Positions 30,725 to 32,895 of a stretch of 64,000 bases of DNA are shown here, piece by piece. The stretch's first letter is position 1; each line of letters begins with the position of its first letter. The stretch is from Bernardetiaceae bacterium (lineage in GTDB: Bacteria > Bacteroidota > Bacteroidia > Cytophagales > Thermoflexibacteraceae), in the NCBI GenBank assembly GCA_025057115.1, contig JANWWZ010000002.1, positions 124,001 to 188,000 of the forward strand. The letters are read 5' to 3'. The position numbers and the translations under genes are program-made. The notes under the pieces are model-generated. The model was not told the DNA's origin, made no database searches, and saw nothing but the letters and a program-made list of their open reading frames with translations.

Positions 30725-31891
30725 TTACCGAAAATCCCACTTTAGTTCGGGAAGGTTTCTCAAATAGTGGCGCGTGTCCGTAGCATATTGCATGAGCTTA
30801 ACAGAATCCAGAGAAGTTAAATCAAATGTCTTAGGCAGGGCTTCAAATAACTGCACGGGAATGATGGTATAACTTGTCTTAGGCGTCTGTTTGCAATGCA
30901 CCCAAGTGAGGTGGTAACCTATCTTAGTGATAACTGTGCGATTAAATTTTTTTAACAGGGTAAGTTCTGCTATAATGCCGCCATCGCGGTAGCGCGTGCG
31001 CTGGTTGGAAAGAAAATTCCCCAGTGAAAAAAATATCGGTACTTTTTTGGTAGTATCTGAAGAAGGCGAAAAATATTCTACTGGTTGCACTACGTGCGGA
31101 TGCGTTCCTACAATAGCATCTGCACCTAAATCTACACAAAATTGAGCTAATTGACGTTGTTGTAAGTTTTCTTGTCGTTGATACTGCTCGCCCCAGTGAA
31201 ATGTTACCAGTATGAAATCTGCTTTCATGTGATGCGCTTTTTGTATATCGGTGCGTATTTGAAATGTATCAATTAAATTGACCACGTTAGGCGAAAATAC
31301 TCTAATGCCATTGGTGTCATAGGTATAGTTGAGAATTGCCAAGCGCAAACCGCGATACTCCCAAATAAAAGGATAAGCGCGCTGGCGTTCTGCAGTGTCC
31401 CGAAAAGTACCCGTGTGCATTATTTGAAGGCTATCCAATATGTGCAAAGTGCGTTCCATGCCCTTTTTGCCCCTGTCATAAGCGTGATTATTAGCCGTGA
31501 GCAAGAAATTATAGCCCGATGCCTTCAAATCTGCCGCTAACTGATCAGGGCTGGAAAACAAAGGATAGCCCTTGTACGGTGGACCTCCCAAGGTAACTTC
31601 TAAGTTGCCTATCACCAAATGGCAAGATCGAAAATAAGGCGCTACGTACCGAAAAATAGGCGCATAGTGATAAGTATTCTTGCTTTTGTCATACGCTGAT
31701 TGCACAATAGGATCGTGCCCCATGATATCACCCGTAAGTGCTAGCTTGACACTCACCGAGTCATCAGTCGATGGAGTAAGTACAGAATCACCTAAAGGCA
31801 GTTCTTGGGTTGAACTGCATTGGATAGAGTCGGTTAAATAAAACGCAATAAGCGCAAAGACGATAAGTAAGAGAAAATGCGCTTTTTTCAT
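30725..31891 (-). CDS. CapA-family protein (PgsA-like metallophosphatase fold)
   Basis: This protein resembles CapA/PgsA of poly-gamma-glutamate capsule systems, a calcineurin-like phosphoesterase fold. The metal-site motifs are LTGDIMGHDP, GNLEVTLGG, TANNHAYDRG, TFHWGEQY and VGTHPHVVQ. An N-terminal hydrophobic segment (LLLIVFALIAFYL) anchors or exports it. The start MKKAHFLLL is used; the frame stays open for another 89 codons upstream only because the repeat array at 31937-32108 has no stops in that frame. Other pgs/cap genes are not nearby, so a capsule role is uncertain. Length from this start is 388 residues, normal for the family. Confidence 0.88.
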   Translation of the reverse strand: MKKAHFLLLIVFALIAFYLTDSIQCSSTQELPLGDSVLTPSTDDSVSVKLALTGDIMGHDPIVQSAYDKSKNTYHYAPIFRYVAPYFRSCHLVIGNLEVTLGGPPYKGYPLFSSPDQLAADLKASGYNFLLTANNHAYDRGKKGMERTLHILDSLQIMHTGTFRDTAERQRAYPFIWEYRGLRLAILNYTYDTNGIRVFSPNVVNLIDTFQIRTDIQKAHHMKADFILVTFHWGEQYQRQENLQQRQLAQFCVDLGADAIVGTHPHVVQPVEYFSPSSDTTKKVPIFFSLGNFLSNQRTRYRDGGIIAELTLLKKFNRTVITKIGYHLTWVHCKQTPKTSYTIIPVQLFEALPKTFDLTSLDSVKLMQYATDTRHYLRNLPELKWDFR

Positions 31892-31936
31892 GCAACAAAG
31901 GTCAAATAAAAACACCAAAAGCGCCAACGGTAAGGG

Positions 31937-32108
31937 TTGTTCGTGAGGACACGAACAACGGCAAGGAGTTGTTCGTGAGGACACGAACAACGGCAAGGAG
32001 TTGTTCGTGAAGACACGAACAACGGTAGAGGTCGTGAAGACACGAACAACGGCGAGGAGTTGTTCGTGAAGACACGAACAACGGCAGAGGTCGTGAGGAC
32101 ACGAACAA
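31937..32108. repeat. Six-unit tandem hairpin repeat array
   Basis: There are six consecutive inverted repeats. Units start at 31937, 31969, 32001, 32031, 32060 and 32090. Four are complete: arms TTGTTCGTG / CACGAACAA around a 4-nt loop AGGA or AAGA. Units 4 and 6 have a shortened left arm (GTCGTG). Units are joined by 8-10-nt linkers of the type CGGCAAGGAG. The first three repeat exactly every 32 bp. The array lies between the capA-like start and the pyrE promoter. It is too regular for chance and has no coding potential I would accept. Confidence 0.93.
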
Positions 32109-32242
32109 CGGTAAGAATAGCTTCTGACTTCCAGCCAGAGTAATATTTTGTCAAACAAACGAATCGAAAATCTAATTCGGCTTTAATAGCAGTTGAATAA
32201 TTTTCGGCTTACATCACTAGCTTTACCCGATATAAAAAGTCC

Positions 32243-32253: not shown

Positions 32254-32895
32254 ATGGATTTGCAAAGAGCCAGAACCATTGCAGCCATGTTGCTGCAAAG
32301 CGGTGCAGTAAAATTAAGCCCAGAAAAACCCTTTACTTGGTCATCAGGTTGGAAAGCTCCTATTTACTGCGACAACAGAGTAACCCTCTCCTTCCCAGAG
32401 ATTCGCACTTATATCAAAAATGCCTTAGCTAGTGCTGTTAAGCAGTATTTTCCTCAAGGACAGGTGATTGCAGGGGTGGCTACCGCTGGCATTCCACAAG
32501 GTACATTAGTAGCTGACCTTCTCGAACTGCCTTTCATTTATGTCCGCACCAAGCCCAAAGAACACGGGCTAGAAAATTTGATTGAAGGCAAGGTAACTGC
32601 CGGAGCTAATGTGGTCGTCATAGAAGATTTGATCTCTACCGGAAAGAGTAGCCTTCAGGTAGTGCAGGCTATTCGCCAAGTGGGTATGTGCGTAAGTGGT
32701 TTGCTAGCAGTTTTCAGCTATGATTTTGACATTGCTCGTCAACATTTCCAGCAAGAAGGTGTTCGTTTTGAAGCACTTTGCACCTATCCCATCTTAATTG
32801 AACAAGCCATAGAACAAAATTACATTAGTCAGGAACACATGGCTACTTTGCAACAATGGCGGCAATCACCTCAGACTTGGAAAGCCCTAGAGTAA
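32254..32895 (+). CDS. pyrE: Orotate phosphoribosyltransferase
   Basis: This enzyme makes orotidine-5'-phosphate from orotate and PRPP in pyrimidine synthesis. The 213-residue protein has FTWSSGWKAPIYCDNR (orotate/PRPP site), GVATAGIPQG, the lysine-rich loop RTKPKEHGLEN, and the PRPP motif VVVIEDLISTGKSS. The ATG at 32254 fits homologues; the TTG 6 nt earlier lies inside the promoter box. The 3' end overlaps the convergent DCC gene by 9 bp. The repeat array lies 135 nt upstream. Confidence 0.97.
   Translation: MDLQRARTIAAMLLQSGAVKLSPEKPFTWSSGWKAPIYCDNRVTLSFPEIRTYIKNALASAVKQYFPQGQVIAGVATAGIPQGTLVADLLELPFIYVRTKPKEHGLENLIEGKVTAGANVVVIEDLISTGKSSLQVVQAIRQVGMCVSGLLAVFSYDFDIARQHFQQEGVRFEALCTYPILIEQAIEQNYISQEHMATLQQWRQSPQTWKALE

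Follow-up and report, generated by a model that had tools for sequence, protein, structure and literature searches.

A tandem array of hairpins between capA and pyrE in a Bernardetiaceae genome probably consists of REP sequences of an atypical Bacteroidota RAYT class

We propose that the array of hairpins lying between a capA-like gene and pyrE in a Bernardetiaceae bacterium is very probably a tandem run of REP sequences, belonging to an atypical class that accompanies the RAYT transposases of Bacteroidota. RAYTs (TnpA-REP) are single-strand transposases of the HUH/Y1 type, which recognise a REP hairpin in single-stranded DNA and cut beside it. From comparison of sequences, the hairpin described here is probably of the kind that flanks RAYT genes, and is copied by their products, in related bacteria, and the array is probably not a local control element. 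It was found in a window of 64,000 nucleotides, the whole stretch of DNA that was analysed, which comes from contig C22, one of the 86 that make up the 3.0-Mb assembly of the genome. The array and its neighbours are laid out as follows, with positions counted from the start of the window.

31925..32115, plus strand: the entire array of tandem REP-type hairpins, whose plus-strand loop is NRGA (TRF, sequence, repeats)
31936..31959, plus strand: unit 1, perfect 10-bp stem, loop AGGA (sequence, pattern match)
31968..31991, plus strand: unit 2, perfect 10-bp stem, loop AGGA (sequence, pattern match; 53.2 bits with the covariance model R1 described below)
32000..32023, plus strand: unit 3, perfect 10-bp stem, loop AAGA (sequence, pattern match)
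32032..32050, plus strand: unit 4, left arm shortened to TCGTG, loop AAGA (sequence, repeats, pattern match)
32059..32082, plus strand: unit 5, perfect 10-bp stem, loop AAGA (sequence, pattern match; R1 52.0 bits)
32091..32109, plus strand: unit 6, left arm shortened to TCGTG, loop AGGA (sequence, repeats, pattern match)
30725..31891, minus strand: capA-like neighbour (PGA_cap; Pfam PF09587, 5e-66), start codon 33 bp from the array
32254..32895, plus strand: pyrE neighbour (phosphoribosyltransferase; Pfam PF00156, 3.5e-8), start codon 138 bp from the array

An earlier, sequence-only reading of this DNA had described six tandem hairpin units, and the sequence, the repeats and TRF agree, the last of these widening the array to 31925-32115. 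Its further observations also stand: the array lies between divergent gene starts (capA, minus strand, at 31891; pyrE, plus strand, at 32254), each of the six loops is either AGGA or AAGA, units 1-3 repeat with a period of exactly 32 bp, and units 4 and 6, where the spacing is 27, are missing an identical outer stretch of the left arm. The four palindromes that it called perfect are so, with arms of 10 bp (GTTGTTCGTG/CACGAACAAC) rather than the claimed 9 bp, and the perfect units read GTTGTTCGTG-ARGA-CACGAACAAC. Expansion of the array by duplication, as it had suggested, is likewise supported. By pattern match all six units have the same orientation, and the window array itself is not a REPIN. 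At up to three mismatches the window holds six matches to the unit, as against 0.03 expected and at most one in window shuffles, and Rfam gave no match at gathering score within the window.

The hairpin is dispersed throughout the genome and the family. The 18-mer TCGTGARGACACGAACAA, allowed one mismatch, occurs at 52 places per strand in the whole genome, while a reversed-pattern control occurs at none, and 36 stretches around copies were examined. From 45 of the 128 distinct units of this source genome, selected for at least seven of nine pairs, which favours pairing, we built a covariance model of the hairpin (R1). This model has matches in all 13 sampled genomes of the family, the source genome included, ranging from at least 1 to at least 136 per genome; at E<=1e-5 and with stricter filters it has matches in 6 of the 198 genomes of a phylum sample, the source genome again included. 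Five assembly contigs (C11, C12, C15, C25 and C86) start or stop in or near such arrays, so that unit numbers may have been collapsed and copy and unit counts are lower bounds. Across 26 loci (the window and 25 others) surveyed by their ORFs, with no annotation, none of the clusters is seen to break a longer ORF. Instead, clusters overlap ORFs of about 90-200 aa that enter or cross the arrays. The window array overlaps an N-terminal extension of capA, and at one further locus (L046) the overlap arises from a called cluster end that is a stray match.

Units of the family follow the consensus GCC-[RTTGnnnGTG]-loop-[CACnnnCAAY]-GGC, in which a stem of 10 bp, covarying between units, is topped by a near-constant apex GTG..CAC and flanked at the foot by the tag GCC/GGC. 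Among the 45 units of the model, 30 cells hold double changes, compared with 6.6 in shuffles (none of 500 as high) and at most 7 in structures slid along the same units. The outermost (tenth) pair, which played no part in unit selection, is G-C in 91 of the 128 units, A-T in 27, C-G in 3, G-T in 5 and A-G in 2. Matches from other genomes, aligned by fitting to R1 (89 rows, 82 of them distinct), show 90 double changes against 18.0 in shuffles. The middles of the arms vary by genome (TTC, TTT, TCC, TCT, GCG, CTT and others), and the apex, the foot and the adjoining GGC are mostly kept across genomes. The earlier suggestion that the palindrome is what is maintained is thus borne out by covariation between copies and between genomes. 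It may not extend to each copy: among 14 diverged long copies, 7 have a 5' hairpin that looks imperfect by eye, which is evidence against steady selection acting on each copy. When the array is folded as single-stranded DNA, each unit forms a hairpin of its own (z -12.3).

Two other repeats were seen in relatives. A congener (G002) carries a second flavour of palindrome with the same apex, GCGGTGTGTG-AGGA-CACACACCGC, at 1299-1332 and 1456-1489 of locus L086 (G002:C11). At locus L106 (G006:C3), a tandem repeat of another, GTGCGGACT-type sequence adjoins REP units at about 850-1010.

Hairpins of the same build flank RAYT genes in other families of Bacteroidia, the arrangement known as a REPtron. 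At two loci, L133 and L135, an ORF with an HUH/Y1 signature lies between hairpins. These ORFs match the NCBIfam model NF047646 (REP_Tyr_transpos) at 1e-17 and 2e-19, below its curated cut-off, whereas Pfam Y1_Tnp (PF01797) gives 0.0038 and nothing, respectively, and is therefore nearly blind to the class. With the L133 protein as query, matches at E<=1e-8 occur in 144 of 395 Bacteroidia genomes. Hairpins with the apex GTG..CAC, at least eight of nine pairs and a distance of at most 250 bp from the gene stand on both sides of 15 of 30 RAYT loci (control windows 1.0-1.25 kb away, 0 of 28) and on at least one side of 21 of 30 (controls, 1 of 27), under an apex rule set after viewing those same loci; nine of the 30 are without such a hairpin. 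Judged by eye, the upstream hairpin, present in 18 loci, has GCC immediately before it in 10 of them, and GGC comes after the downstream hairpin in 12 of 18. The exact tag is missing from about half of the RAYT-flanking hairpins, and no RAYT was found that combines exactly the arms of the window units with the tag. A RAYT gene with an internal TAA at locus L238 (G288:C29) lies between hairpins GTTCGTG-AGGA-CACGAAC; these have the arms and loop of the window units, lack the GCC tag, and are the nearest to them in sequence.

These genes resemble a group already known from Bacteroidetes. Subclass 2.6, equivalent to RAYT group 5 and mostly found in Bacteroidetes, is said in the available text of Quentin et al. 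(2018, PMC6006769) to have 'atypical secondary structures' around its genes, with no GT[AG]G and with copies elsewhere. The motif YIH[QN]NP, given there for subclass 2.6 in Bacteroidetes, is present in 17 of the 26 readable RAYT loci (30 in total), and the RAYT catalytic motifs resemble those that the same text gives for the subclass (PMC6006769). The classical 5' guide, GTAG or GTGG, is missing from the hairpins described here, whose foot is GCC. Since subclass 2.6 is itself reported without GT[AG]G in this part of the source (PMC6006769), the missing guide excludes the classical subclasses only. RAYT genes with same-apex hairpins, taken together with that report as far as it describes them (PMC6006769), lead us to read the hairpins of the window as REPs of this class. 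The earlier reading had offered a mobile palindromic element of REP or MITE type as one possibility, and its dispersal and the same-build hairpins at RAYT genes elsewhere lend this support.

A RAYT sharing the arms was looked for in the source genome and none was found, either with PF01797 or with a single distant RAYT query (L133) at E<=1e-8, and such arms do stand at RAYTs in other families. The source genome thus appears to be without a detectable RAYT, an absence that rests on two imperfect searches and is not firmly shown. We rejected the PF01797 negatives, in the genome and in the family, as evidence against a RAYT, given that this profile barely scores the class. The sole RAYT relative seen in the family (L125, in G008; 34-35% identity) has no such hairpin nearby. 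In eleven other Y1 loci of the family, any match to the hairpin-flanked RAYTs is no better than E 0.008, and one of these loci (L120) has a weak hairpin of 27.7 bits.

Most likely, it was in an ancestor that a RAYT of this class would have spread REPs as well as inverted pairs of them, and the source genome would now keep REPs with no detectable RAYT; these REPs are probably orphans or mobilised in trans. One REP would have landed between capA and pyrE, where local tandem duplication and a single 5-bp deletion in one arm may have produced the six-unit array. A host function is unnecessary to explain it, and a secondary, acquired effect of the array on capA is possible.

Further, the hairpins of relatives can lie inside genes. 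Among the fetched loci, 12 of 31 units in G004 and 14 of 22 in G011 (26 of 53 together) fall within long ORFs, as do 0 of 41 in G006. Such units encode peptides such as VVREDTNNG or PPLFVSSQTT, and their host genes include EutC, a ketoacyl synthase (ketosynthase) and AroE. At the hairpin, the AroE of G011 exceeds its G012 counterpart by eight residues, which the other nine aligned orthologues lack as well; with a hairpin in G011 and none in ten aligned orthologues, it follows that a single hairpin can be gained in frame. At another G011 locus (L192, G011:C301), a tandem coding repeat (SRQSLKPEEKMEG-like) lies beside two REP-encoded peptides in one ORF.

Many copies in the source genome form part of a longer REPIN-like element of about 190 bp. 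This element opens with a 5' piece of 38 bp, continues with an inverted REP whose loop is TCTT and then a body of about 95 bp, and closes with a REP whose loop is AGGA and which ends in AACGGCGAG. Full elements elsewhere in the source genome hence carry the inverted pair of REPs by which REPINs are recognised. Its frequent ends, with a slash at the boundary, are ...TA/GYAGTTGCTTAGG... on the 5' side and AACGGCGAG/ on the 3' side. Matches to the body number 36, spread over 19 of the first 27 sources, and at least 43 by search of the source genome; among eight relatives searched the body has only a weak match, in G002. Parts of the element have been amplified in tandem, plainly so at L043, L048, L060 and L061. 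One whole-element copy folds with a z of -5.3. A reading of the body as structured RNA was dropped, as 14 aligned diverged copies give no consensus pair.

Direct repeats of neighbouring DNA surround a good part of these clusters. We compared the left and right flanks of 33 of the 37 clusters, those with at least 400 bp on both sides (four with shorter flanks were left out), against 1056 control pairs, the best of which scored 34.6 bits owing to REP sequence left at an edge; the best non-REP control scored 29.2. On this basis, 13 of the 33 clusters lie between direct repeats of 23-190 bp. Nine repeats are strong, at 68-237 bits (L060 190 bp, L057 98, L050 76, L054 83, L048 62, L150 75, L063 55, L148 47 and L061 76 bp), and four are modest, at 37-46 bits (L066 30 bp, L049 28, L229 23 and L053 35). 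A 40-bp repeat at L059 is itself REP sequence and was left out, the repeat at L045 (34.6 bits) ties with the best control and is uncounted, and that at L230 (31.0 bits) falls below the 34.6-bit line. A first run had placed 10 of 22 clusters over 31.0 bits, the highest score among 462 mismatched control pairs. The repeats stand at the element ends, as seen at 14 junctions, for example ...GCTTTA/GTGGTTGC...GGCGAGGTG/TGGTAGCG. The cluster of the window has no flanking direct repeat in these flank comparisons. Of 105 hairpins of relatives, 6 have a flank repeat beyond the 99% control line, several of these 6 lying inside tandem arrays, and 3 exceed all controls; with only 6 of 105, long duplications cannot be claimed as general.

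Two further pairs of source-genome clusters share flanking sequence. Inverted clusters at L043 and L044 (G000:C2, about 27.6-28.4 kb and 58.4-58.8 kb) lie 30 kb apart with their flanks shared crosswise: 133 bp of the end of aroE at 97.7% and 69 bp of the end of a second gene at 94.2%. This pattern is the expected trace of a 30-kb inversion, and suggests recombination between two elements that were once repeat-flanked. Two clusters of one contig (L055 and L226, G000:C55) each have, some 250 bp away, a shared stretch of 333 bp at 86% identity, which is probably a paralogous flank.

The long direct repeats may have arisen from target duplication at insertion, or from tandem duplication followed by the precise loss of one element. 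The latter may plausibly be correct, at somewhat less than an even chance: flank and element would have been duplicated in tandem and one element precisely excised, leaving flank-element-flank, so that the repeats would not be target duplications at all. This account can be combined with the REP/RAYT explanation, and accommodates the variable length of the repeats by a RAYT-compatible route. It also fits the tandem amplification of element parts noted above, and the excision of REPINs and tandem f1-REPIN-f2 clusters reported in Pseudomonas in the text available of PMC3116915. However, no flank-element-flank-element intermediate was seen in the clusters viewed, and the 3' end of the element falls within 10 bases after GGC in 8 of the 14 junctions, where varied downstream pieces would be expected. 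The former route, by which the REP-type elements of this lineage would insert through a pathway that duplicates a target of 23-190 bp and leaves repeated gene ends, we regard as rather unlikely. Were it true, REPINs could spread with long and variable target duplications, unlike the single-strand peel-and-paste of IS200 and RAYT elements, and could do so in a genome with no detected RAYT or RVT_1 reverse transcriptase.

It is improbable that the elements are instead non-autonomous DDE transposons (MITEs) or retroposed elements, with the hairpins as palindromic ends and the repeats as target duplications. The long copies do have recognisable ends with direct repeats of 23-190 bp at them, and single-strand HUH transposition is not known to make target duplications, which counts in favour of this alternative. 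However, MITEs would leave target duplications of fixed length, ordinary DDE transposition not being known to vary the length of its duplication, and the repeats here range from 23 to 190 bp. Retroposition is not helped by the source genome, in which no RVT_1 was found at E<=0.001. Against both, the REP units of relatives mostly lack flank repeats, and RAYT loci bear the same kind of hairpin.

Least probable of all, and very unlikely, is local regulation, whether as a tandem operator for a repressor or as an attenuator or mRNA-stability element in the capA 5' leader (both raised by the sequence-only reading): the array does lie upstream of both gene starts, by 33 bp for capA and 138 bp for pyrE, and its RNA folds strongly on either strand (z -8.5 and -12.2), but in the predicted minimum-energy RNA structure adjacent units pair together instead of folding into six individual hairpins, the array contains no terminator-like site and one lies beside it (32123-32139, minus strand, against 0.5 expected from shuffles), and the hairpin unit recurs at dozens of other loci while R1 finds none at pyrE of three congeners (G001, G002 and G003) or at the capA orthologue of G002. 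The G002 contig reaches only about 120 bp upstream of pyrE, and the nearest hairpin on that stretch is some 5.3 kb beyond the gene. A hairpin family present at many other loci, and unfound at the pyrE and capA orthologues that were checked, leaves local control unsupported.

Reading the array as REP sequences supplies a testable motif, GCC-RTTGnnnGTG-loop-CACnnnCAAY-GGC, for a poorly described REP class of Bacteroidota RAYTs. A literature search, in the texts available, found no description of this motif and no paper containing the six oligonucleotides tried. Palindromes of the class occur in coding genes (AroE, EutC, ketosynthase) and may act as recombination sites, and the question is posed of how REPIN-like elements come to lie between long direct repeats of neighbouring DNA.

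Several known systems invite comparison. Like the GTAG and CGTC REP super-families, as described in the text available of PMC3733652, the hairpins are small palindromes that form clusters and lie in some cases inside genes. Unlike them, they carry neither tag, and their stem starts with RTTG, whereas the stem of the CGTC super-family, which has no known transposase according to the same portion of that source (PMC3733652), is AT-first. No CGTC (or TGTC or CCTC) tag accompanies the units, the tag here being GCC/GGC. With the Rickettsia palindromic elements, so far as PMC10969869 describes them in its accessible part, the family shares palindromes in frame within protein genes, and differs in having about 27 bp per unit against about 150 bp (PMC10969869). 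REPINs, in the corresponding text of Bertels and Rainey (2011, PMC3116915), are two inverted REPs around a short body, dispersed and also found in tandem clusters, and the long elements of the source genome similarly have an inverted REP pair around a body, are dispersed, and are clustered in tandem. Unlike REPINs, they have a conserved body of about 95 bp, a 5' extension of about 38 bp and another tag sequence, and 13 of 33 source-genome clusters lie between long direct repeats. A further likeness is to subclass 2.6, as it appears in the available text of PMC6006769. GTG-apex hairpins, frequently tagged with GCC, stand around RAYTs whose motifs are similar to those of the subclass, and the hairpins seem to fit the structures described for it. 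The source genome differs in that no RAYT was found in it.
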